Of a stretch of 24,352 nucleotides of DNA, positions 1-22,825 are shown one piece after another. The notes under the pieces were generated by a model. That model was not told the DNA's origin. It made no database searches and saw only the letters and a program-made list of their open reading frames with translations. Position 1 is the stretch's first letter. Every line of letters begins with the position of its first letter. Source of the stretch: a virus; IMG/VR virus record IMGVR_UViG_3300010970_000183, positions 1 to 24,352 of that record; one strand, given 5' to 3'. The position numbers and the translations under genes were made by a program.

Positions 1-1520
1 CTGTGAACATCCCAGCAGACCCTGCAGTCGTAACTCTGAACGTAGACCACAACCGCGAGGAACCTGTAGGCCGTGCAACTGAGCTCACTGAGACTGCTAC
101 AGGCATCGTAGGTACCTTCAAGATTGCTCAGACTGAAGAGGGAGACCAGCTCCTCGCAGAGATCGCGGACGGCACTCGCGCCAAGCTTTCAGCTGAGGTA
201 AAGAATGTAGTTATCCGAGCTCGTAAAGCTGTATCAGGCTCGCTCTTCGGTGCAGCCGTAGTTGCTCAGGGAGCTTTCCCCTCCGCTGCTCTCCTCGCAG
301 AGTTCGCTGAGGACACTGACCCACAAGAGGAAGAGGAGACCGTGGCAGACGACACGACACTCGAAGCACAAATTCTCGACGTAGTCCCCGACCCCGAGGG
401 CAACACCGAGGAAATTATCGTCGATGACCTGCCCGAGCAGGTTATTGTCGATGTAGTAAACCCTGTGGACGGCACCGTAACCCCTACGGTATTCGTCCCA
501 GAAACCCAACCCAACACACAAGGAGATAACATGGGCGCAGCAACTGCACCTGAGACCCTACAGGCTCACAAGGCTGCGCCTGTATCCGAGGGCCTCAACA
601 CCGTAATCAAGAACCTCAGCGACTCAGCCAAGACTGGTGCTCGCTCGATGTTCGCAGAAATCGCTAAGCGCGATGACGCTCAGGCTGTCACCTCGCTCTT
701 CGCAGCTCTCGAAGACATCAAATACGATGGCGTCGGCTCTGTAGGCGTAAACACTGCTCAGCCTGCATGGCTGGGCGAGCTCTGGGGTGGCAAGTCCTAC
801 CAGCGCAAGTACATCCCACTCATTGGCTCTGGAGCTCTTACCTCTCTCACCATGGAAGCATGGAAGTGGAACGTAAAGCCATCCGTAGCTGAATGGGCTG
901 GTAACAAGAGTGCAGTCCCATCGAACGAACCTTCGACTACTCCAGTCACCGTAAACGGTGTCCGCTACGCCGGAGCCCACGATTGGTCTAGAGAATTTCG
1001 GGATTTTGGGCGCACTGATGTAATCGAGAGCGCATTGCGACTCATGACTGAGTCCTACGCTATGGTCACTGACATTGCAACCATCGAGGGACTCCTCGCA
1101 GGCGCTACTGACGTAGTCGCAGGCTCTGCTACCACTCAGGTAGCTTGGAACCGCATCATGGATGGTATCGAGGCAGTTATCGACGTAGCTACTCCTACCT
1201 TCGCAGTAGTTGCTCAGGACCTGTACCGCGAGCTGGTCATGACCACCTCAAACGACAGCCTGGCTTACCTGAACGCATCACTGGGCCTCGAGTCCGGTAC
1301 CGCTGCAGGTTTCCAGATTATCCCCTCGAGCGAACTCGCAGACGGAAACGTCCTCGTTGGATCGCGCGAAGCTGCAACCTCCTACGAGCTCGGTGGCTCG
1401 CCTATCCGCGTAGAGGCTGAGGCCATCTCCGTAGGTGGCTTCGACATCGGTCTCTTCGGATACCACGCAGTACACGTTGCAACGCCTCTCGGCCTTGCTC
1501 TTGTGGCACCTGCTGCCTAA
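1..1520 (+). CDS. HK97-type prohead protease fused to major capsid protein, unit A (5' end outside window)
   Basis: This is the C-terminal 500-odd residues of a capsid maturation protease joined in frame to the major capsid protein. The GTG at position 3 is an internal valine codon: it aligns with the valine in GTVDIPSDP, about residue 47 of the unit B copy, so the gene begins upstream of the window. The protease part has the likely catalytic His in NVDHNREEPVGR and the likely Ser in RAKLSAEVKN, the layout expected of the S78 prohead protease family. A long acidic linker rich in Asp, Glu and Val follows, which could act as a scaffold or delta-like domain. The capsid part begins near MGAATAPETLQ. 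The unit B homologue is highly similar. Fusion of protease and capsid is known in some phages. The capsid fold is inferred from gene order and overall resemblance. Confidence 0.85.
   Translation, partial: VNIPADPAVVTLNVDHNREEPVGRATELTETATGIVGTFKIAQTEEGDQLLAEIADGTRAKLSAEVKNVVIRARKAVSGSLFGAAVVAQGAFPSAALLAEFAEDTDPQEEEETVADDTTLEAQILDVVPDPEGNTEEIIVDDLPEQVIVDVVNPVDGTVTPTVFVPETQPNTQGDNMGAATAPETLQAHKAAPVSEGLNTVIKNLSDSAKTGARSMFAEIAKRDDAQAVTSLFAALEDIKYDGVGSVGVNTAQPAWLGELWGGKSYQRKYIPLIGSGALTSLTMEAWKWNVKPSVAEWAGNKSAVPSNEPSTTPVTVNGVRYAGAHDWSREFRDFGRTDVIESALRLMTESYAMVTDIATIEGLLAGATDVVAGSATTQVAWNRIMDGIEAVIDVATPTFAVVAQDLYRELVMTTSNDSLAYLNASLGLESGTAAGFQIIPSSELADGNVLVGSREAATSYELGGSPIRVEAEAISVGGFDIGLFGYHAVHVATPLGLALVAPAA
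520..533 (+). promoter_or_regulatory. Internal Shine-Dalgarno and in-frame ATG inside the fusion gene, unit A
   Basis: AAGGAG at 520-525 lies five bases before an in-frame ATG at 531. It is one of the best ribosome binding sites in the window, yet it lies in the middle of an open frame. The same element occurs at the matching place in unit B, so it is conserved. Confidence 0.7.
531..1520 (+). CDS. Nested major capsid protein (internal start), unit A
   Basis: Translation from the internal ATG would give a 329-residue capsid protein lacking the protease and acidic linker, about the size of a mature HK97-fold subunit. The unit B nested product is also exactly 329 residues, whereas the linker just before the ATG differs in length between the units. 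This suggests that the product boundary is under selection. Internal starts that adjust head-protein ratios are established (lambda C/Nu3), but here the nested product would be the capsid protein itself. That this start is used is inferred from the ribosome binding site. The alternative is that the fusion is made and cut by its own protease. Confidence 0.6.
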   Translation: MGAATAPETLQAHKAAPVSEGLNTVIKNLSDSAKTGARSMFAEIAKRDDAQAVTSLFAALEDIKYDGVGSVGVNTAQPAWLGELWGGKSYQRKYIPLIGSGALTSLTMEAWKWNVKPSVAEWAGNKSAVPSNEPSTTPVTVNGVRYAGAHDWSREFRDFGRTDVIESALRLMTESYAMVTDIATIEGLLAGATDVVAGSATTQVAWNRIMDGIEAVIDVATPTFAVVAQDLYRELVMTTSNDSLAYLNASLGLESGTAAGFQIIPSSELADGNVLVGSREAATSYELGGSPIRVEAEAISVGGFDIGLFGYHAVHVATPLGLALVAPAA

Positions 1521-3039: not shown

Positions 3040-3552
3040 GTGGGCGCAATAATCTGGGAATCGAAAGAACTCCAGGCCACTATCCTCGCTTTGAAGATAG
3101 TTGGAAAGGACCTTCGTAAGGAAATCCTAAAGCGCACACGGGAGCTCATCCTAAAAGACTGGGACAGTGCAGTAGCTGATGAGATCAGTACCGTAGGTGG
3201 AGACATCTACGCTACTCGTCTCACTATGCGAAACACCAGGGTAAAAGTAGGTACTCAAGGCTTTACCCTGCAGGCTGCTACACGTGGAACTAAAGCAACG
3301 TCTGGGGGGCTCATCTCCTCCAAGCACTACTATCTTGCTGAGTTCGGTGCAGATAAAAAGGTAGTGCCAGTAAACGGTAGACGTGGAGCCACAAGCTACC
3401 AATATAAGCGAACAGTAAACACCGGCTTTCAGCGACGCGTCAAAAATGGGCGCTACGCTTTCAAGGCCGGAGGTAAGATTATGAACAGGGCCCTAGCGCT
3501 CTACACACAGACCTGTATACAGATGGTCTACGAAGCTTTCGAGAGGAAATAA
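3040..3552 (+). CDS. Basic tail/neck-completion protein, possibly HK97 gp10-like, unit A
   Basis: A 170-residue lysine- and arginine-rich protein with a GTG start after GAGCCTCCC. The segment GGLISSKHYYLAEFGADKK is reminiscent of the (Y)A..vEfGt element in HK97 gp10-type proteins, but gp10 homologues normally precede the major tail protein, so this may instead be a minor tail protein. It occupies the place where tail assembly chaperones usually sit, but I see no second frame suggesting a programmed frameshift. The boundary of the exact inter-unit repeat lies inside this gene: from codon 111 onward the DNA matches unit B exactly. Confidence 0.4.
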   Translation: MGAIIWESKELQATILALKIVGKDLRKEILKRTRELILKDWDSAVADEISTVGGDIYATRLTMRNTRVKVGTQGFTLQAATRGTKATSGGLISSKHYYLAEFGADKKVVPVNGRRGATSYQYKRTVNTGFQRRVKNGRYAFKAGGKIMNRALALYTQTCIQMVYEAFERK

Positions 3553-3557
3553 CGCTT

Positions 3558-4946
3558 ATGGCTGACGCCGGCATTAACATGAGCGCCGATATTGACCCGA
3601 AACCCTTTATAGCCGGTATCGACAATATGGGCGAAGCCCTCGAAGACCTCCAAAAAGAGGTCGAAGACGTCCAAAAAGACGGTGATAAGAGCCTCGAAAA
3701 GCTTGAAAAGAGCTTCGCAGAGGTCGCAAAAGCCTCTCGTAACGCCGGTGATGACGTCCGAAAAGGGCTTGGAGACGGCACAAAACGGGCTGGAAAAGAG
3801 GCTGAAGGGGCTCTAGACGAGTTCAAGAGCGAAGCAAACAGCACCGCTAAAGAGTCTGCAGCATCATTTGATGGCTCTGCAGAGTCGATTGTGGACTCTT
3901 TTCAAGAGATCGCAGCTAATGCGTTCCAAGGTTTCGGCGCAGCCGGTGCAGTAGCTGGTTTAGCCCTCGCAGCCGGTATTGGTATCGCTACGGCAGCATT
4001 TCAGCAATCTGAAGAGGAAGCTCAAAAGGCTAAAGAGCGCATAGGTGAGCTCGGTATAGCGATGATTGACGCCGGTACAGACGGCTCTGTGCCCCTCGAA
4101 AACATCACCGAGAACCTCAAAAACATTGTCACTAACAGCGAAGACGCGGTCAAGGGCTTCAAGGATATTAGTCAGGCATCTAAAACTGCAGGTACAGACG
4201 CTGCAGCCATTGCCATGGCGTATGCAGGTAATGAAGACGCTATCGACGGGCAGATGAAAGCCCTCGAAGACCTCATCGACACTCAGCAAGAGGAAGTCGA
4301 TAAGGCAGCCGAGCATGGCTCACGTTTCGCAGCTATTTCAGACGCCAAACTCAAGGCTTTACAGCTTCAACAATCAGACCTCAAAAAGGTACAGGAAGAG
4401 ACTGAAGCTGCAGCCGAAATTGAGCAGGCATGGCTCGCCTCTGGCGGTGCAGAAATACAGGCTAAAGCCGACGCCGTAGGGCTTATAAACGACGCATACG
4501 ATGAAGTCGTCGGGAGCGTCACCGATTTCGTAAACTCAGAGACTGGCATCCTCGACGTTGAAGCCTATCTAGCAGCCATTGACGCACGCTCTAAGGCTCT
4601 GGAAGACTACCAAACTAACTTAGCTAGTGCCGGGCTCTCTACGGAGCAGAAAGACGCCCTCAACGCCATGGGTGTCGAAGCTGCATCTGCATGGCTTGCC
4701 GGTTATCAGTCAGCAACTCCAGAGCAGCAACAAAAGCTGAAGCAATCACTCACAAACGCTGCTAGTGAAAGCTCTGGCGTGGCTCGCAAAACCATTGACG
4801 ACGCTTTCAAAAAGCCTGTAGACGCTACAGTGAAAGCTATTGCAGATACTGCAAGTGCACGCCGAGACCTAGACAACCTCATCGAAGCTCGCACGGCAAT
4901 CATTAGGGTCGATTTCAGAGACCGAGAAGGGCGACCCATAGGATAA
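3558..4946 (+). CDS. Tape measure protein, unit A
   Basis: A 462-residue, Ala/Glu/Lys-rich, largely helical protein and the longest gene of the tail module. Residues 25-110 have the charge pattern of a coiled coil (EALEDLQKEVEDVQ). A hydrophobic stretch lies at about 125-148 (GFGAAGAVAGLALAAGIGIA), a common feature of tape measures thought to aid membrane passage of DNA. A second helical region covers roughly 225-290. With the known rule of about 0.15 nm per residue, this predicts a tail near 70 nm, very short. It starts after AGAGGAAATAACG, and its TAA overlaps the next ATG. Confidence 0.85.
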   Translation: MADAGINMSADIDPKPFIAGIDNMGEALEDLQKEVEDVQKDGDKSLEKLEKSFAEVAKASRNAGDDVRKGLGDGTKRAGKEAEGALDEFKSEANSTAKESAASFDGSAESIVDSFQEIAANAFQGFGAAGAVAGLALAAGIGIATAAFQQSEEEAQKAKERIGELGIAMIDAGTDGSVPLENITENLKNIVTNSEDAVKGFKDISQASKTAGTDAAAIAMAYAGNEDAIDGQMKALEDLIDTQQEEVDKAAEHGSRFAAISDAKLKALQLQQSDLKKVQEETEAAAEIEQAWLASGGAEIQAKADAVGLINDAYDEVVGSVTDFVNSETGILDVEAYLAAIDARSKALEDYQTNLASAGLSTEQKDALNAMGVEAASAWLAGYQSATPEQQQKLKQSLTNAASESSGVARKTIDDAFKKPVDATVKAIADTASARRDLDNLIEARTAIIRVDFRDREGRPIG

Positions 4947-5299
4947 TGACTACAGTCACTACTAGCTCAGGCGCATCATTTACCCCAAAAGTACGTTACA
5001 CAGCAGGGGACACCTACCCAACACGTAACAAAATCTATGACCTACTCGGCGGAGATGTAGCCGTCACATTCGGCGCAATGCCAAGACGTACCGGCACTTT
5101 CGATTTCATGTTCGAGGATGAGCTTTCGGCTTTCACCGCATACCTAATCATGCGAGACGGCTACGTCATGCAAATCATGGACGTGGACGACATCGGTGCA
5201 AGCCCTATGAACTTCGTGCTCTCTGGCGACATGACTCGCACATGGGATGCTGAAACTAATACTTGGACGGTCTCACTAGACTTTCAAGAGGTAGCATGA
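4946..5299 (+). CDS. Minor tail protein (distal tail-like), unit A
   Basis: A 117-residue protein that starts within the stop of the tape measure (TAATG) and ends in an ATGA overlap with the next gene, so three tail genes are coupled. It contains GDVAVTFGAMPRRTGTFDFM and ends TWTVSLDFQEVA, a beta-rich pattern like short tail-tip proteins that follow tape measures. Position supports a distal tail or tip role. No catalytic motif is visible. Confidence 0.5.
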   Translation: MTTVTTSSGASFTPKVRYTAGDTYPTRNKIYDLLGGDVAVTFGAMPRRTGTFDFMFEDELSAFTAYLIMRDGYVMQIMDVDDIGASPMNFVLSGDMTRTWDAETNTWTVSLDFQEVA

Positions 5300-6531
5300 G
5301 CCTCCCACTGTCTAAACACGTAGCCATAGTTAACTCAACTACCGGCTATGAAAATATGTCCACCATTGACATCGACATCCGCATCGAAGAAACGTGGAGC
5401 CCATACATACAGGGCACACTCACATTTGCAGAAAACTACGTATTAGACCCACGCGCAGGCGACCGGCTCACTATTCTCTTGCAGCAAGAGTTTGGCGCAA
5501 TGCTGCACCCTAGAGACCTCACTAACAGCATCCCCACGGGCTTAGTCTCTGACTACACTGCAGCCTTCACCCCTATGAAGCCTCGCACAATCACCTCTAC
5601 ATACGTGAAATCTTGGAACATTTTTGGCACTGCAGAGCCCATCTCATACTTGACTGCAGGCATAGGCGGAGCAATGGCAGCCTATACTGCAGCCTTCACC
5701 TATGTTTACGATGTCACCCGATACCTCGCAGGCAGTGGAAACCTAAACCCTCCACAGCCCACGGTCTTCTCTGGAGACTTAGGTATCCGCTCCGTCGTCT
5801 ACAATCAGCTCGACCAAACTTACACAGTCTCAGTATCTTCAGACGAAGCCCTCCTCCAAGATTATGCATGGATCTCAGCTACGCCATACACTCCAGCGAC
5901 CACAGACGTCGCTACGCTCACCAATTACGTCTTAGGCAAGATAGGCGCATCGTTAGCCACTGGCAACGCAACGGGAACCTATGACAACACCGTAGTAAAA
6001 TGGCTCCCCGGACAGTCCGGCTGGGACTTCATCAACCCCATTATCCAAGCATCCGATTTGGTGCTCTACTGTGACGAAGGCAGAAATTGGCGGCTCGTAC
6101 CATCCACGGCAACAACTGGCAGCCTCACACTCGACGACACATCCAACATTATTGAGCTCACAACATCCATCGACATTGCACGCGACTATTTCGACTCGTG
6201 TGTCGTCCAATACTCTTGGTATAACGGCACAGCGCAGCAAGTCGCCTACGACATTTATGCCCCCGTCGGCAGTGTCAAAACTAAGAATGTACAAATCTCA
6301 GACACGCCATATCCCGGCACTGGTCTCGCTTATGCACTAACTCAGCGAGCATTGACTCGTAGCGAAATGTTTGAGTTGAAAGCAATCTCCAACTATGACG
6401 CTCGCCCTAGGCAAGAGCTCACTGTGAACGTCACAGACACTGCAACAAAATTAGCCGTAATCTCTTCGATTGCTTGGAGCCTCCCGGCTGATACAATGAA
6501 TATCAACATCCGAAACCTAGTAGAGGTATAA
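5296..6531 (+). CDS. Tail tip/hub minor tail protein, unit A
   Basis: A 411-residue beta-rich protein. The frame is open further upstream, but the ATG at 5296 overlaps the previous stop as ATGA, like most junctions here, and gives the sensible N-terminus MSLPLSKHVAIVNS. It has the size and position of the hub (Tal or gp27-like) protein that binds the end of the tape measure: an early strand region, a central segment with WLPGQSGWDFINPIIQASD, and a C-terminus ending MNINIRNLVEV. The pattern W..L..... followed by paired strands at the end is common in hub proteins of actinophages. Confidence 0.6.
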   Translation: MSLPLSKHVAIVNSTTGYENMSTIDIDIRIEETWSPYIQGTLTFAENYVLDPRAGDRLTILLQQEFGAMLHPRDLTNSIPTGLVSDYTAAFTPMKPRTITSTYVKSWNIFGTAEPISYLTAGIGGAMAAYTAAFTYVYDVTRYLAGSGNLNPPQPTVFSGDLGIRSVVYNQLDQTYTVSVSSDEALLQDYAWISATPYTPATTDVATLTNYVLGKIGASLATGNATGTYDNTVVKWLPGQSGWDFINPIIQASDLVLYCDEGRNWRLVPSTATTGSLTLDDTSNIIELTTSIDIARDYFDSCVVQYSWYNGTAQQVAYDIYAPVGSVKTKNVQISDTPYPGTGLAYALTQRALTRSEMFELKAISNYDARPRQELTVNVTDTATKLAVISSIAWSLPADTMNINIRNLVEV

Positions 6532-6533
6532 CA

Positions 6534-7154
6534 ATGGCAACAGGCTATCTAGACGCTAACGGCATTTGGCAGTATGGCGAAGATGACAGTGACGCGAACT
6601 TCAGTTCGTTACTGAACCGTCTCGCCTCTTCGACGTCTGACGTTGTCGCTAACCCTACCGTTTCGGGCAATATGCGACTAACAAACGTGAACGATGCTTC
6701 AACTACTTCGACAGACCACGCGTTTCAAATTGGCGCATCCGCTGGAACTAATCTTCGTATTGACAATAACGAAATCTTGGTCGCAAACAACGGTGCTGCA
6801 GCGACTCTGAACATAAACCCAAACGCAGATATTTCTATGTCTGGAAGCTCCAACACGGTCACAATGAACGGTCGCTGGATAGCAGCGCATTACCCTTGGG
6901 CACAGTCCGCCGGTAACATCACTACAAGCACGTCTGCACACGTCACCGTCACATTCCCTGCAAGCCGTTTCTCAGTCGGACCAAACGTATCTGTAACAAG
7001 CGTTGCAGGCACTAACGCCGTCTGCACGCCCTACGTAGCGACCGTAAACGCCACCGCAATGACTCTAAGCCTCTACACAACTGCAGGGGCTCGTGTAGCT
7101 CAGAATGTTCAGTGGCTTGCCGTACAAATGACCTCAACAACCGCTGCAGGATAG
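6534..7154 (+). CDS. Tail fibre / receptor-binding candidate with lectin-like C-terminus, unit A
   Basis: A 206-residue protein. The N-terminus MATGYLDANGIWQYGEDD looks like the attachment end of small actinophage minor tail proteins. The middle (about 40-115) is Asn/Ser/Thr-rich with repeating short strands, as in fibre shafts. Residues ~135-202 (VTFPASRFSVGPNVSVTS to VQWLAVQMTST) resemble the H-type lectin fold seen at the tips of fibres. It is the last structural gene before lysis, so it is the best receptor-binding candidate. The lectin resemblance is my reading and not a search result. Confidence 0.55.
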   Translation: MATGYLDANGIWQYGEDDSDANFSSLLNRLASSTSDVVANPTVSGNMRLTNVNDASTTSTDHAFQIGASAGTNLRIDNNEILVANNGAAATLNINPNADISMSGSSNTVTMNGRWIAAHYPWAQSAGNITTSTSAHVTVTFPASRFSVGPNVSVTSVAGTNAVCTPYVATVNATAMTLSLYTTAGARVAQNVQWLAVQMTSTTAAG

Positions 7155-7161
7155 GACTGAA

Positions 7162-7320
7162 ATGCTCGACTTTATCGTCACTTGCCACACTGAAGGCTGC
7201 GACAACGCAGACATCCCCATCGACATCATCGTCGAGGATGCCGAGCCCATCGTCATCTGCGGCGTATGCTCTGTAACCATCATCGACATCGTGGCAAAAC
7301 CTACACCCAAAAAGAAGTGA
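7162..7320 (+). CDS. Small zinc-ribbon-like protein of the tail-lysis junction, unit A
   Basis: A 52-residue protein, MLDFIVTCHTEGCDNADIP at the start and a lysine tail KPTPKKK at the end. Cys8, Cys13, Cys33 and Cys36 (CHTEGC and CGVC) form two knuckles that could hold one zinc ion. The stop overlaps the GTG start of the lysin (GTGA). It is identical in unit B. Function is unknown; similar small proteins are, as far as I recall, frequent beside minor tail genes of actinophages. Confidence 0.7.
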   Translation: MLDFIVTCHTEGCDNADIPIDIIVEDAEPIVICGVCSVTIIDIVAKPTPKKK

Positions 7321-7949
7321 CCACTCAGCTCGTAAACCCAAACCCCGGCGTGAAAGACTACGCCGGGTTTTGTCTACGCTTCACACAAGCGGTTTACGGA
7401 GCACCAGCACAACACTCAAGCGCATGGGCTGCATGGGAAGCCACAAGCTACAAACACAGCACCGCTGAAAGCATCCCAGCGATCTCAGTCCCAGTATGGT
7501 TTAGCCACTACGGGACATACGGCGAACCCCCCACATACGCAAACTGGGGGCACGTCGTCGCCTACATCCCCGGCACCGGATACCTCTCCAGCCCCGGAGA
7601 AGGCTACGGCTCACAAATCTTTGACAGCATCCAAGCCGTAGAGACCTATTTCAACGCCCATTATGTAGGCTGGAGTGAAGACCTCAACGGTTTACGCATA
7701 GCTGAAGTAACAAATACCCCGACAAATAGTAAAGGCGACACTGAAATGCTCATGATTCACAAGCCCAGCGGAGACGCAAACGTCTACCGTTACGCCGTCT
7801 TCTCTGGCAGTTTCTGGCTCGAGTTCGTCGGGCAAGACGTAGCTAACGGTTTCAGTGCCCAAATCGGTGCAGCATCCGTGAAGGTCACTAACGATTTCTG
7901 GAACGTATGCAAGGCATCTGCACAGGCTGGGGCACGCAATGCCAAATGA
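7317..7949 (+). CDS. Endolysin, CHAP/NlpC-P60-like peptidase, unit A
   Basis: A 210-residue protein. I chose the GTG at 7317 because it overlaps the upstream stop and gives TTQLVNPNPGVKDYAGFCL; the open frame further upstream lies inside the previous gene. Cys19 in YAGFCLRF and His79 in NWGHVVAYIPG fit the Cys-His pair of CHAP-type amidases/peptidases, followed by YVGWSEDLNG, a motif typical of such actinophage lysins. Residues after about 140 are separate and could bind the cell wall. The exact repeat with unit B ends at codon 174, beyond which the C-terminus differs. It would cleave host peptidoglycan at the end of infection. Confidence 0.7.
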   Translation: MTTQLVNPNPGVKDYAGFCLRFTQAVYGAPAQHSSAWAAWEATSYKHSTAESIPAISVPVWFSHYGTYGEPPTYANWGHVVAYIPGTGYLSSPGEGYGSQIFDSIQAVETYFNAHYVGWSEDLNGLRIAEVTNTPTNSKGDTEMLMIHKPSGDANVYRYAVFSGSFWLEFVGQDVANGFSAQIGAASVKVTNDFWNVCKASAQAGARNAK

Positions 7950-13675: not shown

Positions 13676-13693
13676 TGGTATAGAATAGGCGCG
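13676..13693 (+). promoter_or_regulatory. Possible leaderless promoter at the portal start
   Basis: TGGTATAGAAT (13676-13686) looks like an extended -10, with TAGAAT ending six bases before the GTG at 13693, the spacing typical of leaderless actinobacterial transcripts. No good -35 and no ribosome binding site are seen. Confidence 0.35.
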
Positions 13694-14736
13694 TGGGTAT
13701 TCGTAACGCTTTGAGACTTATTGAGTCCGGCGACCAACTGCATGAGCGTAGCCTTACGCCGAACCAAGGCATCGTCTCGCCATGGGTACAGTCGCAGTTG
13801 TCGCAGGTAGTGTGGTCAGACGTCTTTGGTAGTGAAGCTAACATCGTTTCACGCGCCGATGCTATGACCATTCCAGCCGTTGCGAAGGCTCGCCAAATCT
13901 TGGTGAGCACCATCGCACGCTTCCCCCTCATCGCTCTCGACTCTAACGACCAGCCTGTGAGCGTCCCATGGCTGCAGGCAACCGACGGCGAAGTCTCCCC
14001 ATGGCACCGTATGGCTTGGACAATCGACGATCTAGTCATGTCGGGCTGGTCTCTTTGGGGTGTCGAACGTGACGCAGCCGGCGAAATCATCAAGGCAGAC
14101 CGTTGCCCAATCGAACGCTGACACATAAACAACGATGGAAACATCGTAATCGACGACCAAATCGCAGAAGCTGACAGCGTCATCCTCATCCCTGCACCAT
14201 TCGAGGGTCTCCTCAAGGTCGCATCTCGTACCCTAAAGGGTGGCGCAAAGCTTGAAAATAGCTGGGTTGGTAAGGCAACTAACCCCATCCCGGCCATCGA
14301 ACTACACGCCACAACCGATGACCCCCTCGAACTGGACGAAGTGCAGGCACTCGTACAGGCTTGGGCAGACGCTCGCTCCGATGTAAATGGTGCAATCGCA
14401 TTTACACCTCACAACATTGAGGCACGCGCTCACGGTAACGCAGAGCCTTCTCTGCTTATCGAGGGTCGCAATTTCCTACGCATTGACGTCGGAGCGTTTC
14501 TTGGTATCCCTGCAGCTCTCATGGATGCATCCCTCTCCACTGCCTCGCTGACGTACAGCACGCAGGAAGGGCAGCGTAATGAGTTTGCAGACTTCACTCT
14601 CCCCTACTGGATGGAGCCCATTCAGCAACGTCTAAGCCTCGATGACGTAGTGCCCTCCGGCATCCGCATCCGCTTTGACATGAGCGACCTTTTCACCACC
14701 ACGCCAAGCCCCACAAGCCCACCTGCAGAGGATTAA
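13693..14736 (+). pseudogene. Portal protein interrupted by an in-frame TGA
   Basis: The frame runs 348 codons, with a single TGA at 14119-14121 (codon 143). Before it, MTIPAVAKARQILVSTIARF at 58-77 matches the (V)PAV..ar.ilv.tia..pl element of HK97-type portals. After it, the frame stays clean and continues HINNDGNIVIDD to PSPTSPPAED. RCPIER-stop-HINNDG is where portals commonly have a Trp (pier.W.id..G.i), so the change is probably TGG to TGA. No frameshift or other damage is seen. Either this genome is defective, a sequencing error occurred, or the stop is read through. The fragment after the stop has a GTG at 14341 in frame. The protein is short for a portal but fits a minimal phage. The TAA ends three bases before the capsid ATG. 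Confidence 0.8.
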
Positions 14737-14739
14737 ACA

Positions 14740-16404
14740 ATGGCTAAAGATGTACAAATCGAGGCCGGTAGCCTCTACGCAAACGCTGAAGAGCGTATCG
14801 TTTCGGGTCTCCTTCTCCCTTATGGCGAGATTGGACAGACCAATCTGGGACGTTTCAGCATCGAACACGGCACCGTAGACATCCCATCCGACCCCGACAT
14901 CGTCACCCTGAACGTAGACCACAACCGTGAAGAGCCCGTCGGTCGCGCTACAGAGCTCACTGAGACCGCTGCAGGTATCGTTGGAACCTTCAAGATTGCT
15001 AACACTGAAGAGGGAGACCAGCTTCTCGCAGAGATCGCGGACGGTACTCGTGCGAAGCTTTCCGCTGAGGTTAAGAACGTAGTCATTCGCGCTCGTAAGG
15101 CAGTGTCCGGCTCGCTCTTCGGCGCAGCCGTAGTTGCTCAAGGCGCGTTCCCTTCCGCTGCACTCCTCGCTGAGTTCGCTGAAGACACAGACCCCCTAGA
15201 GGAAGGCGAGAACGTGGCAGAAGATGCAACTCTCGAAGCACAAATCTTGGATGTAGTCCCCGACCCCGAGGGCAATGTCGAAGAGATCATCGTCGATGAC
15301 TTGCCCGAGCAGGTCATCGTGGATGTAGTAAACCCTGTGGATGGAACCGTAGAACCTGCGGTCTTCGTCCCAGAAACCCCAACCGCAACACCCGACAATC
15401 AAGGAGATAACCCAATGGGCGCAGCATCTGCACCTGAGACCCTGCAGGCACACAAGGCTGCACCTGCATCACAGGGACTCGCTACCGTAGTAAACCACCT
15501 GAGTGAAGCCGCTAAGTCCGGCTCTCGCTCACTCTTCGCTGAAATTGCACAGCGCGATGACGCTAAGGCAGTCACTTCGCTCTTCGCAGCTCTCGAAGAC
15601 ATCACCTTCGACGGCGTAGGCTCCGTTGGTGTAAACACCGCACAGCCTCAGTGGTTGGGCGAGCTCTGGGGCGGACGCACTTACGAGCGTAAGTACATCC
15701 CACTCATCGGCTCCGGTGCTCTCACCGCTCTCACCATGGAAGCATGGAAGTGGAACGCTAAGCCTTCCGTAGCTGCATGGACTGGCAACAAGACTGCCGT
15801 TCCATCCAACGAGCCATCGACCACCCCCGTAACCGTCTCCGGACAGCGTTACGCAGGTGCACACGACTGGGCTCGTGAGTTCCGTGACTTCGGACGTACC
15901 GACGTTATCGAGTCGGCTCTCCGCGCAATGACCGAGTCTTACGCAAAGGTCACTGACATTGCAACCATCGACGCACTCATCGCAGGTGCTACCGATGTAG
16001 TTGCAGGCTCCGCTACCACTCAGGTTGCTTGGAACCGCATCATGGACGGTGTTGAAGCAATCATCGACACCGCCGTGCCTACGTTCGCAGTAGTCGCTTC
16101 TGACCTGTACCGTGAGCTCGTCATGACCACCTCAAACGACAGCCTCGCTTACTTGAACGCTTCGCTGGGTCTTGAAGCAGGAACCGCAGCCGGTTTCAGC
16201 ATCATCCCATCGAGCGAGCTCGAAGCTGGCACCGTCCTCGTAGGTGCTCGTGAAGCTGCAGTCTCCTACGAACTGGGTGGCTCGCCTATCCGCGTAGAAG
16301 CTGAAGCTATCTCCGTCGGTGGCTTCGATATCGGGCTTTTCGGCTACCATGCCATCAATGTGGTAAACGCTGGAGCTCTTGCATTGGTTGCACCTGCAGC
16401 CTAA
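14740..16404 (+). CDS. HK97-type prohead protease fused to major capsid protein, unit B
   Basis: The complete 554-residue fusion. Residues 15-140 form the prohead protease (RIVSGLLLPYGEIG at 19-32; His61 in NVDHNREEPVGR; Ser108 in RAKLSAEVKN). Residues 143-225 are an acidic linker with about 25 Asp/Glu. The capsid part follows from 226 (MGAASAPETLQ) and contains LWGGRTYERKYIPLIGSG, WAREFRDFGRTDVIESAL and a Gly/Ala-rich end. The capsid assignment comes from the protease fusion and gene order. The start lies three bases after the portal stop. Unit A has the same protein with many, mostly silent, changes. Confidence 0.85.
   Translation: MAKDVQIEAGSLYANAEERIVSGLLLPYGEIGQTNLGRFSIEHGTVDIPSDPDIVTLNVDHNREEPVGRATELTETAAGIVGTFKIANTEEGDQLLAEIADGTRAKLSAEVKNVVIRARKAVSGSLFGAAVVAQGAFPSAALLAEFAEDTDPLEEGENVAEDATLEAQILDVVPDPEGNVEEIIVDDLPEQVIVDVVNPVDGTVEPAVFVPETPTATPDNQGDNPMGAASAPETLQAHKAAPASQGLATVVNHLSEAAKSGSRSLFAEIAQRDDAKAVTSLFAALEDITFDGVGSVGVNTAQPQWLGELWGGRTYERKYIPLIGSGALTALTMEAWKWNAKPSVAAWTGNKTAVPSNEPSTTPVTVSGQRYAGAHDWAREFRDFGRTDVIESALRAMTESYAKVTDIATIDALIAGATDVVAGSATTQVAWNRIMDGVEAIIDTAVPTFAVVASDLYRELVMTTSNDSLAYLNASLGLEAGTAAGFSIIPSSELEAGTVLVGAREAAVSYELGGSPIRVEAEAISVGGFDIGLFGYHAINVVNAGALALVAPAA
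15401..15417 (+). promoter_or_regulatory. Internal Shine-Dalgarno and in-frame ATG, unit B
   Basis: AAGGAG at 15401-15406, then eight bases to the in-frame ATG at 15415. It corresponds to the unit A element at 520-533 with three extra spacer bases, so element and frame are conserved while the exact spacing is not. Confidence 0.7.
15415..16404 (+). CDS. Nested major capsid protein (internal start), unit B
   Basis: Initiation at 15415 would yield a 329-residue capsid protein, the same length as the nested product of unit A. The fusion would supply one protease per several capsid subunits, and the nested start the bulk of the shell. This is inferred from the ribosome binding site and conserved length; no protein data are available here. 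Confidence 0.6.
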   Translation: MGAASAPETLQAHKAAPASQGLATVVNHLSEAAKSGSRSLFAEIAQRDDAKAVTSLFAALEDITFDGVGSVGVNTAQPQWLGELWGGRTYERKYIPLIGSGALTALTMEAWKWNAKPSVAAWTGNKTAVPSNEPSTTPVTVSGQRYAGAHDWAREFRDFGRTDVIESALRAMTESYAKVTDIATIDALIAGATDVVAGSATTQVAWNRIMDGVEAIIDTAVPTFAVVASDLYRELVMTTSNDSLAYLNASLGLEAGTAAGFSIIPSSELEAGTVLVGAREAAVSYELGGSPIRVEAEAISVGGFDIGLFGYHAINVVNAGALALVAPAA

Positions 16405-17924: not shown

Positions 17925-18437
17925 GTGGGCGCAACAGTATGGGACTCTAAAGAGCTCCAAGCCACTATTTTGGCTCTCAAAGTAGTTGGTAAAGACCTCC
18001 GTAAAGAGATACTGAAGCGCACACGAGAGCTCATCCTCAAAGACTGGGACAGTGCGATCGCTGAAGAGATAAGCACCGTAGGCGGAGACATTTACGCCAC
18101 ACGGCTCACCATGCGAAACACACGCGTGAAAGTAGGAACGCAGGGCTTCACTCTGCAGGCAGCTACACGAGGCACGAAGGCAACATCCGGCGGACTCATA
18201 TCGTCCAAGCATTACTATCTAGCCGAGTTCGGTGCAGACAAGAAAGTAGTGCCTGTAAACGGTAGACGTGGAGCCACAAGCTACCAATATAAGCGAACAG
18301 TAAACACCGGCTTTCAGCGACGCGTCAAAAATGGGCGCTACGCTTTCAAGGCCGGAGGTAAGATTATGAACAGGGCCCTAGCGCTCTACACACAGACCTG
18401 TATACAGATGGTCTACGAAGCTTTCGAGAGGAAATAA
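17925..18437 (+). CDS. Basic tail/neck-completion protein, unit B
   Basis: A 170-residue homologue of 3040-3552. The first 110 codons carry many silent changes and few amino acid changes (ATVWDS for AIIWES, AIAEE for AVADE). From codon 111 the DNA is the same as unit A, because the shared block begins here. This makes the gene a natural place for the crossover between units. Confidence 0.4.
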   Translation: MGATVWDSKELQATILALKVVGKDLRKEILKRTRELILKDWDSAIAEEISTVGGDIYATRLTMRNTRVKVGTQGFTLQAATRGTKATSGGLISSKHYYLAEFGADKKVVPVNGRRGATSYQYKRTVNTGFQRRVKNGRYAFKAGGKIMNRALALYTQTCIQMVYEAFERK

Positions 18438-18442
18438 CGCTT

Positions 18443-19831
18443 ATGGCTGACGCCGGCATTAACATGAGCGCCGATATTGACCCGAAACCCTTTATAGCCG
18501 GTATCGACAATATGGGCGAAGCCCTCGAAGACCTCCAAAAAGAGGTCGAAGACGTCCAAAAAGACGGTGATAAGAGCCTCGAAAAGCTTGAAAAGAGCTT
18601 CGCAGAGGTCGCAAAAGCCTCTCGTAACGCCGGTGATGACGTCCGAAAAGGGCTTGGAGACGGCACAAAACGGGCTGGAAAAGAGGCTGAAGGGGCTCTA
18701 GACGAGTTCAAGAGCGAAGCAAACAGCACCGCTAAAGAGTCTGCAGCATCATTTGATGGCTCTGCAGAGTCGATTGTGGACTCTTTTCAAGAGATCGCAG
18801 CTAATGCGTTCCAAGGTTTCGGCGCAGCCGGTGCAGTAGCTGGTTTAGCCCTCGCAGCCGGTATTGGTATCGCTACGGCAGCATTTCAGCAATCTGAAGA
18901 GGAAGCTCAAAAGGCTAAAGAGCGCATAGGTGAGCTCGGTATAGCGATGATTGACGCCGGTACAGACGGCTCTGTGCCCCTCGAAAACATCACCGAGAAC
19001 CTCAAAAACATTGTCACTAACAGCGAAGACGCGGTCAAGGGCTTCAAGGATATTAGTCAGGCATCTAAAACTGCAGGTACAGACGCTGCAGCCATTGCCA
19101 TGGCGTATGCAGGTAATGAAGACGCTATCGACGGGCAGATGAAAGCCCTCGAAGACCTCATCGACACTCAGCAAGAGGAAGTCGATAAGGCAGCCGAGCA
19201 TGGCTCACGTTTCGCAGCTATTTCAGACGCCAAACTCAAGGCTTTACAGCTTCAACAATCAGACCTCAAAAAGGTACAGGAAGAGACTGAAGCTGCAGCC
19301 GAAATTGAGCAGGCATGGCTCGCCTCTGGCGGTGCAGAAATACAGGCTAAAGCCGACGCCGTAGGGCTTATAAACGACGCATACGATGAAGTCGTCGGGA
19401 GCGTCACCGATTTCGTAAACTCAGAGACTGGCATCCTCGACGTTGAAGCCTATCTAGCAGCCATTGACGCACGCTCTAAGGCTCTGGAAGACTACCAAAC
19501 TAACTTAGCTAGTGCCGGGCTCTCTACGGAGCAGAAAGACGCCCTCAACGCCATGGGTGTCGAAGCTGCATCTGCATGGCTTGCCGGTTATCAGTCAGCA
19601 ACTCCAGAGCAGCAACAAAAGCTGAAGCAATCACTCACAAACGCTGCTAGTGAAAGCTCTGGCGTGGCTCGCAAAACCATTGACGACGCTTTCAAAAAGC
19701 CTGTAGACGCTACAGTGAAAGCTATTGCAGATACTGCAAGTGCACGCCGAGACCTAGACAACCTCATCGAAGCTCGCACGGCAATCATTAGGGTCGATTT
19801 CAGAGACCGAGAAGGGCGACCCATAGGATAA
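18443..19831 (+). CDS. Tape measure protein, unit B
   Basis: Identical in sequence to the 462-residue tape measure of unit A, including the hydrophobic stretch at 125-148. Identity at silent sites over 1.4 kb, against about 15% difference outside the block, shows very recent common origin of this module or an assembly effect. The predicted tail length is the same in both units. Confidence 0.85.
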   Translation: MADAGINMSADIDPKPFIAGIDNMGEALEDLQKEVEDVQKDGDKSLEKLEKSFAEVAKASRNAGDDVRKGLGDGTKRAGKEAEGALDEFKSEANSTAKESAASFDGSAESIVDSFQEIAANAFQGFGAAGAVAGLALAAGIGIATAAFQQSEEEAQKAKERIGELGIAMIDAGTDGSVPLENITENLKNIVTNSEDAVKGFKDISQASKTAGTDAAAIAMAYAGNEDAIDGQMKALEDLIDTQQEEVDKAAEHGSRFAAISDAKLKALQLQQSDLKKVQEETEAAAEIEQAWLASGGAEIQAKADAVGLINDAYDEVVGSVTDFVNSETGILDVEAYLAAIDARSKALEDYQTNLASAGLSTEQKDALNAMGVEAASAWLAGYQSATPEQQQKLKQSLTNAASESSGVARKTIDDAFKKPVDATVKAIADTASARRDLDNLIEARTAIIRVDFRDREGRPIG

Positions 19832-20184
19832 TGACTACAGTCACTACTAGCTCAGGCGCATCATTTACCCCAAAAGTACGTTACACAGCAGGGGACACCT
19901 ACCCAACACGTAACAAAATCTATGACCTACTCGGCGGAGATGTAGCCGTCACATTCGGCGCAATGCCAAGACGTACCGGCACTTTCGATTTCATGTTCGA
20001 GGATGAGCTTTCGGCTTTCACCGCATACCTAATCATGCGAGACGGCTACGTCATGCAAATCATGGACGTGGACGACATCGGTGCAAGCCCTATGAACTTC
20101 GTGCTCTCTGGCGACATGACTCGCACATGGGATGCTGAAACTAATACTTGGACGGTCTCACTAGACTTTCAAGAGGTAGCATGA
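19831..20184 (+). CDS. Minor tail protein (distal tail-like), unit B
   Basis: Identical to 4946-5299: 117 residues, coupled to the tape measure by TAATG and to the hub gene by ATGA. It is probably part of the tip complex. Confidence 0.5.
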   Translation: MTTVTTSSGASFTPKVRYTAGDTYPTRNKIYDLLGGDVAVTFGAMPRRTGTFDFMFEDELSAFTAYLIMRDGYVMQIMDVDDIGASPMNFVLSGDMTRTWDAETNTWTVSLDFQEVA

Positions 20185-21416
20185 GCCTCCCACTGTCTAA
20201 ACACGTAGCCATAGTTAACTCAACTACCGGCTATGAAAATATGTCCACCATTGACATCGACATCCGCATCGAAGAAACGTGGAGCCCATACATACAGGGC
20301 ACACTCACATTTGCAGAAAACTACGTATTAGACCCACGCGCAGGCGACCGGCTCACTATTCTCTTGCAGCAAGAGTTTGGCGCAATGCTGCACCCTAGAG
20401 ACCTCACTAACAGCATCCCCACGGGCTTAGTCTCTGACTACACTGCAGCCTTCACCCCTATGAAGCCTCGCACAATCACCTCTACATACGTGAAATCTTG
20501 GAACATTTTTGGCACTGCAGAGCCCATCTCATACTTGACTGCAGGCATAGGCGGAGCAATGGCAGCCTATACTGCAGCCTTCACCTATGTTTACGATGTC
20601 ACCCGATACCTCGCAGGCAGTGGAAACCTAAACCCTCCACAGCCCACGGTCTTCTCTGGAGACTTAGGTATCCGCTCCGTCGTCTACAATCAGCTCGACC
20701 AAACTTACACAGTCTCAGTATCTTCAGACGAAGCCCTCCTCCAAGATTATGCATGGATCTCAGCTACGCCATACACTCCAGCGACCACAGACGTCGCTAC
20801 GCTCACCAATTACGTCTTAGGCAAGATAGGCGCATCGTTAGCCACTGGCAACGCAACGGGAACCTATGACAACACCGTAGTAAAATGGCTCCCCGGACAG
20901 TCCGGCTGGGACTTCATCAACCCCATTATCCAAGCATCCGATTTGGTGCTCTACTGTGACGAAGGCAGAAATTGGCGGCTCGTACCATCCACGGCAACAA
21001 CTGGCAGCCTCACACTCGACGACACATCCAACATTATTGAGCTCACAACATCCATCGACATTGCACGCGACTATTTCGACTCGTGTGTCGTCCAATACTC
21101 TTGGTATAACGGCACAGCGCAGCAAGTCGCCTACGACATTTATGCCCCCGTCGGCAGTGTCAAAACTAAGAATGTACAAATCTCAGACACGCCATATCCC
21201 GGCACTGGTCTCGCTTATGCACTAACTCAGCGAGCATTGACTCGTAGCGAAATGTTTGAGTTGAAAGCAATCTCCAACTATGACGCTCGCCCTAGGCAAG
21301 AGCTCACTGTGAACGTCACAGACACTGCAACAAAATTAGCCGTAATCTCTTCGATTGCTTGGAGCCTCCCGGCTGATACAATGAATATCAACATCCGAAA
21401 CCTAGTAGAGGTATAA
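20181..21416 (+). CDS. Tail tip/hub minor tail protein, unit B
   Basis: Identical to the 411-residue hub candidate of unit A. The start at 20181 is taken from the ATGA overlap; the longer open frame from 20148 lies inside the previous gene. Sharing this protein unchanged means both units would have the same tail tip. Confidence 0.6.
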   Translation: MSLPLSKHVAIVNSTTGYENMSTIDIDIRIEETWSPYIQGTLTFAENYVLDPRAGDRLTILLQQEFGAMLHPRDLTNSIPTGLVSDYTAAFTPMKPRTITSTYVKSWNIFGTAEPISYLTAGIGGAMAAYTAAFTYVYDVTRYLAGSGNLNPPQPTVFSGDLGIRSVVYNQLDQTYTVSVSSDEALLQDYAWISATPYTPATTDVATLTNYVLGKIGASLATGNATGTYDNTVVKWLPGQSGWDFINPIIQASDLVLYCDEGRNWRLVPSTATTGSLTLDDTSNIIELTTSIDIARDYFDSCVVQYSWYNGTAQQVAYDIYAPVGSVKTKNVQISDTPYPGTGLAYALTQRALTRSEMFELKAISNYDARPRQELTVNVTDTATKLAVISSIAWSLPADTMNINIRNLVEV

Positions 21417-21418
21417 CA

Positions 21419-22039
21419 ATGGCAACAGGCTATCTAGACGCTAACGGCATTTGGCAGTATGGCGAAGATGACAGTGACGCGAACTTCAGTTCGTTACTGA
21501 ACCGTCTCGCCTCTTCGACGTCTGACGTTGTCGCTAACCCTACCGTTTCGGGCAATATGCGACTAACAAACGTGAACGATGCTTCAACTACTTCGACAGA
21601 CCACGCGTTTCAAATTGGCGCATCCGCTGGAACTAATCTTCGTATTGACAATAACGAAATCTTGGTCGCAAACAACGGTGCTGCAGCGACTCTGAACATA
21701 AACCCAAACGCAGATATTTCTATGTCTGGAAGCTCCAACACGGTCACAATGAACGGTCGCTGGATAGCAGCGCATTACCCTTGGGCACAGTCCGCCGGTA
21801 ACATCACTACAAGCACGTCTGCACACGTCACCGTCACATTCCCTGCAAGCCGTTTCTCAGTCGGACCAAACGTATCTGTAACAAGCGTTGCAGGCACTAA
21901 CGCCGTCTGCACGCCCTACGTAGCGACCGTAAACGCCACCGCAATGACTCTAAGCCTCTACACAACTGCAGGGGCTCGTGTAGCTCAGAATGTTCAGTGG
22001 CTTGCCGTACAAATGACCTCAACAACCGCTGCAGGATAG
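21419..22039 (+). CDS. Tail fibre / receptor-binding candidate, unit B
   Basis: Identical to 6534-7154. If the C-terminal lectin-like region sets host range, the two phages represented here would bind the same receptor, a condition that would allow co-infection and recombination. Confidence 0.55.
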   Translation: MATGYLDANGIWQYGEDDSDANFSSLLNRLASSTSDVVANPTVSGNMRLTNVNDASTTSTDHAFQIGASAGTNLRIDNNEILVANNGAAATLNINPNADISMSGSSNTVTMNGRWIAAHYPWAQSAGNITTSTSAHVTVTFPASRFSVGPNVSVTSVAGTNAVCTPYVATVNATAMTLSLYTTAGARVAQNVQWLAVQMTSTTAAG

Positions 22040-22046
22040 GACTGAA

Positions 22047-22205
22047 ATGCTCGACTTTATCGTCACTTGCCACACTGAAGGCTGCGACAACGCAGACATC
22101 CCCATCGACATCATCGTCGAGGATGCCGAGCCCATCGTCATCTGCGGCGTATGCTCTGTAACCATCATCGACATCGTGGCAAAACCTACACCCAAAAAGA
22201 AGTGA
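22047..22205 (+). CDS. Small zinc-ribbon-like protein, unit B
   Basis: Identical to the 52-residue protein of unit A (CHTEGC and CGVC pairs). Its stop overlaps the lysin GTG. It is too short for many gene callers. Confidence 0.7.
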   Translation: MLDFIVTCHTEGCDNADIPIDIIVEDAEPIVICGVCSVTIIDIVAKPTPKKK

Positions 22206-22825
22206 CCACTCAGCTCGTAAACCCAAACCCCGGCGTGAAAGACTACGCCGGGTTTTGTCTACGCTTCACACAAGCGGTTTACGGAGCACCAGCACAACAC
22301 TCAAGCGCATGGGCTGCATGGGAAGCCACAAGCTACAAACACAGCACCGCTGAAAGCATCCCAGCGATCTCAGTCCCAGTATGGTTTAGCCACTACGGGA
22401 CATACGGCGAACCCCCCACATACGCAAACTGGGGGCACGTCGTCGCCTACATCCCCGGCACCGGATACCTCTCCAGCCCCGGAGAAGGCTACGGCTCACA
22501 AATCTTTGACAGCATCCAAGCCGTAGAGACCTATTTCAACGCCCATTATGTAGGCTGGAGTGAAGACCTCAACGGTTTACGCATAGCTGAAGTAACAAAT
22601 ACCCCGACAAATAGTAAAGGCGACACTGAAATGCTCATGATTCACAAGCCCAGCGGAGACGCAAACGTCTACCGTTACGCCGTCTTCTCTGGCAGTTTCT
22701 GGCTCGAGTTCGTCGGGCAAGATGCAGCTAATGGCTTTGCGCGCCAAATCGGGGCAGGCTCCGTCCTCGTATCTAGCGACTTCTGGAATGTTTGCAAAGC
22801 ATCTGCCCAGGCTGGGACTAAGTAA
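22202..22825 (+). CDS. Endolysin, CHAP/NlpC-P60-like peptidase, unit B
   Basis: A 207-residue lysin, identical to unit A through codon 173, including Cys19 and His79. It then diverges: ANGFARQIGAGSVLVSSDFW replaces ANGFSAQIGAASVKVTNDFW, and the end is AGTK. The stop TAA overlaps the holin-like ATG by one base, whereas in unit A the overlap is eleven bases. Confidence 0.7.
   Translation: MTTQLVNPNPGVKDYAGFCLRFTQAVYGAPAQHSSAWAAWEATSYKHSTAESIPAISVPVWFSHYGTYGEPPTYANWGHVVAYIPGTGYLSSPGEGYGSQIFDSIQAVETYFNAHYVGWSEDLNGLRIAEVTNTPTNSKGDTEMLMIHKPSGDANVYRYAVFSGSFWLEFVGQDAANGFARQIGAGSVLVSSDFWNVCKASAQAGTK

Follow-up and report, generated by a model that had tools for sequence, protein, structure and literature searches.

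We analysed a linear stretch of 24,352 bases from a virus, IMG/VR virus record IMGVR_UViG_3300010970_000183 (hereafter the window), in which a protease-capsid fusion gene contains an SD sequence followed by an in-frame ATG at the border between the two domains. Comparison with related fusions suggests that the gene very probably yields plain shell proteins in large numbers alongside few protease-tagged ones, and the arrangement recurs in many other phages in which the gene had been annotated as a fusion only. The existence and conservation of the internal start, selection on its codons and on the openness of its mRNA, the kept fused frame and the order of the domains are all supported by these comparisons. 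We consider it likely that one cistron gives rise to two co-assembling proteins by nested in-frame initiation.

RESULTS

Two genome units in the window

The window holds ~1.6 copies of a ~14.9 kb tailed-phage genome, and both copies contain the protease-capsid fusion (Table 1). Within the block that they share, unit 1 and unit 2 are offset by 14,885 bases. This 4,468-base block (3370–7837 and 18255–22722) is 100% identical between the units, whereas its flanks are only ~76–80% identical. It results either from very recent recombination between strains or from the joining of two related ~14.9 kb genomes during assembly, and the contig may be chimeric. Between the units, the capsid genes diverge by ~20% at the DNA level and were counted as separate alleles. 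The GTG at position 3 of unit 1 is merely the first in-frame codon and not the true start of the fusion. The portal ORF (13693–14736) is broken by a single in-frame TGA (14119–14121), which is either a sequencing error or the mark of a defective copy; the frame is open at this position in four IMG/VR homologues.

Domain organization of the fusion

The unit 2 fusion matched phrog_2263 (major head protein; 2.5e-67) over residues 9–548 of 554, with one ORF spanning protease and capsid, and Pfam PF25209 (Phage_capsid_4) matched above its cut-off at residues 344–536. The portal ORF stops directly upstream, and the site of the gene between portal and head-tail genes in a ~14–17 kb genome is that of the phrog_2263 small-actinophage type. 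Residues H61 and S108 fit a prohead serine protease, and their catalytic role is suggested by the protease family.

In an AlphaFold2 model of the fusion, disorder extends up to residue ~245 and is followed by helices (246–286) and by a capsid core that is partly confident. With moderate model confidence, this core aligned in Foldseek with capsids that include HK97 (1ohg, 2gp1) and Che8, at E values between about 1e-5 and 1e-6. The internal ATG corresponds to residue 226, within the disordered stretch and ahead of the putative delta helices. By analogy with HK97 gp5, the modelled helices may represent a delta-like segment and, lying downstream of the ATG, would belong to both products. The first-pass annotation had described a scaffold-like linker. 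The acidic linker is instead confined to the fusion and modelled as disordered, and the likely scaffold is the delta-like helices at ~246–286, downstream of the ATG. We also considered the acidic linker as an independent scaffold protein and found no support for this candidate, as no start or stop would release the linker alone. Bacterial genome contigs searched with the window protein yielded no homologue; the GMA5 query retrieved a single distant locus (L058, Frigoribacterium).

Table 1. Positions of the fusion genes, their predicted domains and the candidate internal starts in the window
Feature	Position	Strand	Remarks
Protease-capsid fusion, unit 1	3..1520	+	5' end cut by window edge; 86% identical to unit 2
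Possible second start, unit 1: GAGGAAGAGGAGACC-GTG, nested length 392 aa	325..344	+	GTG 342-344 kept in 7/7 homologues
Internal AAGGAG, unit 1	520..525	+	5-nt spacer, then ATG 531-533
Nested capsid ORF, unit 1, 329 aa	531..1520	+	Frame runs to the TAA that ends at 1520
AGAGGA, ribosome binding site of fusion start, unit 2	14727..14732	+	SD energy -5.8 kcal/mol
Protease-capsid fusion ORF, unit 2, 554 aa	14740..16404	+	Open frame, complete
Prohead protease domain, residues 11-145	14770..15174	+	Confident AlphaFold2 domain, pLDDT about 80
Protease H61	14920-14922	+	Invariant in alignments of 32 and of 17 fusions
Protease S108	15061-15063	+	Invariant in alignments of 32 and of 17 fusions
Acidic linker, ~80 residues, variable length, predicted disordered, fusion product only	15175..15414	+	pLDDT 23-38; PAF-to-M 85-89 codons in 7 homologues
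Possible second start, unit 2: GAGGAAGGCGAGAAC-GTG, nested length 396 aa	15197..15216	+	GTG 15214-15216 kept in 7/7 homologues
Internal AAGGAG, unit 2	15401..15406	+	8-nt spacer, then ATG 15415-15417; CAA-GGA codons unchanged in 7/7 homologues
Nested capsid ORF, unit 2, 329 aa	15415..16404	+	ATG to TAA; synonymous conservation peak spans ATG
Putative helical delta-like segment, residues 246-286, shared by both predicted products	15475..15597	+	Low-confidence helices
HK97-fold capsid core, residues ~303-551	15646..16392	+	Foldseek + PF25209

A probable internal start at the protease-capsid border

Just five AAGGAG sequences occur on the + strand of the whole window, and two of the five are the internal sites. 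The first-pass annotation placed AAGGAG with an in-frame ATG at the protease-capsid border in both units, which is exact (520–533 and 15401–15417); its statement that the downstream product has 329 residues in both units despite a change in linker length was also confirmed, the distance from the PAF/GAF motif of the protease to the internal M being 85 codons in unit 1 and 89 in unit 2, i.e. four residues shorter in unit 1. By upstream SD energy, the unit 2 ATG ranks within the top 1.8% of linker codons. In the window, the internal SD (−8.3 kcal/mol) exceeds that of the fusion (−5.8 kcal/mol) in strength, yet this holds for just 16 of 27 homologues, so that SD strength does not settle the ratio of fusion to nested product. 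The set ratio of products that had been suggested is thus not borne out by SD strengths.

Selection on the start among close homologues

The close set consisted of seven sequences, i.e. the two units and five IMG/VR contigs that are 85–97% identical to the query. All seven keep AAGGAG-N5..8-ATG and a 329-aa nested product. The distance from the ATG to the GEL of the capsid core is constant (81 codons in 7/7), while that from the protease to the ATG ranges from 85 to 89 codons, and every indel is in frame. Synonymous conservation reaches its peak for the gene at codons 212–240, centred on ATG codon 226 (scan p 0–0.0016; within-amino-acid permutation p 5e-5; n = 7), and this peak extends 14 codons past the internal start. 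Between codons 212 and 234, nine of the ten codons for invariant residues (90%) were identical in all seven sequences, compared with a mean of 21% over the gene.

These data bear on the possibility that only the fusion is made. Each capsid subunit would then be a protease-capsid polyprotein from which the protease cuts itself off, and the internal SD-ATG would be an accident of purine-rich linker codons. The Nocturne116 paper (PMC8306868) cites a proposal of this kind for Pseudomonas phage PAJU2, a capsid polyprotein with autocatalytic cleavage. A codon shuffle with amino acids fixed that scored SD strength alone is in keeping with such an accident, being borderline in the window group (p 0.05–0.12) and not significant in most of the distant members. 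This shuffle is weak because the linker residues (K/E/G/Q) already impose purines, and it was replaced by tests of mRNA openness, synonymous conservation and position. A conservation peak that is centred on the start and continues beyond it argues against exclusive synthesis of the fusion.

Recurrence and mRNA openness in distant fusions

Most related fusions, at 26–37% identity, also have an SD-start at this border. A border SD-ATG is present in Decurro/AN, Kels, Root, Penoan, MooKitty, Adaia, Atraxa, RRH1, Coeur, GMA5, GRU3, McGonagall, Schiebs, Corgi, Noely, BlueFeather and BurtonThePup, among others. PensacolaC28 has an SD-GTG at the border, GTG is also used in two further loci (L044 and L045), and the border sites of Berka and Whytu/Piku/Yavru are weak (−4 kcal/mol). 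Conservation of AAGGAG among relatives, which the first-pass annotation had put forward as a check, held for close relatives and, in the form of a weaker or different SD, for most of the distant ones. Among 28 representatives, an SD core precedes 27 of 67 linker ATGs (40%), versus 398 of 3624 other linker codons (11%; p 1e-9) and 16 of 138 ATGs elsewhere (12%; p 6e-6).

Openness of the mRNA was then compared with that of amino-acid-fixed codon shuffles. At 24 representative internal starts the mRNA was more open than the shuffles (mean z about +1.4; Fisher p 8e-11, combined p-values being optimistic as the representatives share descent and are not phylogenetically independent). Controls at linker, gene, Met and SD-like non-start positions averaged z of about −0.1 to −0.3, and the starts differed from the linker, Met and SD-like non-start controls with p-values of 1e-8, 2e-9 and 6e-10, respectively. 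The sites in this test had been picked for carrying an SD, and the SD-like control was run alongside. Selection on openness at the start also speaks against exclusive synthesis of the fusion. An SD-like sequence could alternatively cause a translational pause between the domains of one protein during co-translational folding, with no initiation, and the site does lie in a disordered inter-domain linker where pausing could aid folding. A pause, however, requires neither an ATG at SD spacing nor open mRNA nor conserved downstream codons, all three of which are present, and SD-like non-start sites of the same genes showed no openness. We regard a pause as very improbable.

All 42 fusion ORFs of the phrog_2263 type, with 31 distinct linker lengths, lack a stop or frameshift between the domains. 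Such breaks would be expected if the nested start alone counted, and selection therefore appears to act on the long product as well as on the short one.

A second fusion family with internal SD-starts

Circum-type fusions (phrog_3270; loci L059–L138) come from Arthrobacter AM/AU, Gordonia, Streptomyces and Lactococcus 1706. Only weak cross-matches were found between this family and phrog_2263 members, indicating a distant relationship. Among 50 Circum-type representatives (<70% identity), a strong SD precedes 58 of 214 inter-domain ATGs (27%) versus 12 of 493 ATGs elsewhere (2.4%; p 7e-22). Many members have two SD-starts, one after the protease and one directly before an MKHNVF-type capsid N-terminus. 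The distal start before the conserved MKHNVF often has a perfect GGAGG or AAGGAGG. Circum-type genes thus resemble the window gene in having a fused frame with internal SD-starts at domain borders, and differ from it in belonging to a distantly related protein family and in having as many as two internal starts, of which the distal precedes MKHNVF. Recurrence of the start in a second, distantly related family with different capsid N-termini is a further argument against exclusive synthesis of the fusion.

The fusion is in frame in all 79 Circum-type loci for which both parts were in hand. Taken with the 42 of 42 open frames in the phrog_2263 type, this result bears on the proposal that the fusion is hardly translated, that the internal start is simply the start of an ordinary capsid gene, and that the missing stop between the two genes is neutral. 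The internal SD does exceed that of the fusion in the window group, and the nested product has the size of an ordinary capsid protein, but open frames across widely varying linker lengths imply selection for the fused product. We consider an ordinary capsid gene with a neutral fusion to be highly improbable.

The window gene has a candidate second internal start at the end of the protease. The GTG at 342 in unit 1 and 15214 in unit 2 follows a GA-rich SD-like sequence (GAGGAAGAGGAG) and is the sole all-GTG column among 35 Val columns in the seven homologues, GTG being the rarest Val codon. The mRNA openness at this GTG was not significant. If real, this start would give the window gene a two-start pattern like that of the Circum family.

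Exceptions and an upstream holin-like domain

A nested capsid start is common but not universal. Emperor, SallySpecial and EricDab have short linkers (93–101 codons) and no SD-ATG between protease and capsid; their SD-ATG (CGAAAGGA) instead separates the protease from an N-terminal membrane domain. No convincing ATG site was seen at the border in Idaho or in the Frigoribacterium locus. As these exceptions lack a nested start, expression of the fusion alone with subsequent cleavage must be possible for some members and may be viable. Such members favour exclusive synthesis of the fusion, which we nonetheless judge unlikely given the conservation peak, the openness and the recurrence described above.

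For the holin-protease-capsid fusion gp9 of EpicDab/EricDab, the published description draws attention to an internal ATG at nt 5870 (PMC9671378), and we found that this ATG carries CGAAAGGA. The Gordonia EpicDab/EricDab gp9 belongs to the same family as the window gene, but its internal start precedes the protease rather than the capsid domain. An extra membrane-spanning, holin-like domain is present in frame upstream of the protease in small phages of Gordonia and Rhodococcus (L009, L011, L017, L018, L023, L024, L026 and L028). In Rhodococcus phages P19 and Toil, stand-alone proteins match residues 32–85 of Coeur.

DISCUSSION

We infer that both products are made, and likewise their ratio, co-assembly and cleavage, along the following lines. 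Initiation at 14740 would produce the 554-residue protease-linker-delta-capsid fusion, and initiation at the internal AAGGAG/ATG (15415; 531 in unit 1) would produce the 329-residue delta-capsid protein. The nested protein would be expected to form most of the shell, with a minority of fusion subunits joining the same lattice via the shared capsid domain. The disordered linker would carry the protease into the procapsid, making a separate recruitment step needless, and the packaged protease would then cut delta/linker sites during maturation. The place of the internal start in an already translated mRNA and coupling to the portal stop could affect the product ratio. A capsid N-terminus generated by protease cutting, which in the first-pass annotation would count against internal initiation, would not exclude a nested start, since removal of delta would hide the nested N-terminus.

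Internal starts in protease genes are known. In phage lambda, a nested in-frame start in the protease gene C yields the scaffold Nu3. In Mu I/Z, an in-frame scaffold start likewise lies inside the protease gene (PMC4378225). The window gene resembles both systems in that an in-frame internal SD-start in a protease gene would give a protease-free partner, and comparative sequence evidence supports the earlier suggestion of a nested capsid start with lambda C/Nu3-like logic, including the finding of an in-frame SD-start in the protease gene that appears to be under selection. In lambda and Mu the nested product is a scaffold and the capsid gene is separate, whereas the predicted nested product in the window is a capsid protein with a putative delta segment. 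Because this product contains the capsid domain, the gene would work like lambda C/Nu3 without being a member of that type. The order protease, putative delta and HK97-fold capsid is the same as in HK97 gp4/gp5, where the protease is likewise expected to be incorporated and to cleave delta, but gp4 (protease) and gp5 (delta-capsid) are two genes, while the window has one ORF with a nested start. A sequence search of the PDB gave only a weak profile match (9sz9, E 0.002) to the protease part of the fusion profile. The 516-aa capsid chain of 9sz9/9sza corresponds by tblastn to the capsid protein of Lactococcus phage Nocturne116 (100% across 215 aa), and the sequence KEKENENM at its protease end resembles, at the protein level, SD-encoding motifs.

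Protease-capsid fusions have been described as common among siphoviruses whose genomes are unusually small, including Arthrobacter AN/AX/FE, Microbacterium EE, Gordonia CW/DM and Rhodococcus RRH1 (PMC5513430, PMC7302621). These tiny-actinophage fusions share with the window gene the phrog_2263 family, the position between portal and head-tail adaptor and a genome of ~15 kb; the available text of both papers describes the fusion alone, with no nested capsid start. Fusions and nested starts in protease genes are each known; a limited search of the open-access literature found no description of the two combined, with a capsid start nested in the fusion and conserved and apparently selected at the codon level in two fusion families.

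We give an even chance to a broader reading, in which fused protease-capsid genes of two distantly related phage families are polycistronic in disguise. SD-starts at domain borders would yield two nested products, or three in the Circum type (protease-delta-capsid, delta-capsid and capsid), that co-assemble, and the dose of protease and scaffold in the procapsid would be set by initiation within one ORF. Hundreds of public phage records bear a single product named 'major capsid and protease fusion protein' or similar (87 and 244 records matched). Use of the nested start would mean that the abundant shell protein is mis-annotated in many such phages and that the shell tolerates the protease since most subunits carry none. 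In this way, a single gene could provide the smallest tailed phages with protease, delta and shell functions in controlled stoichiometry.
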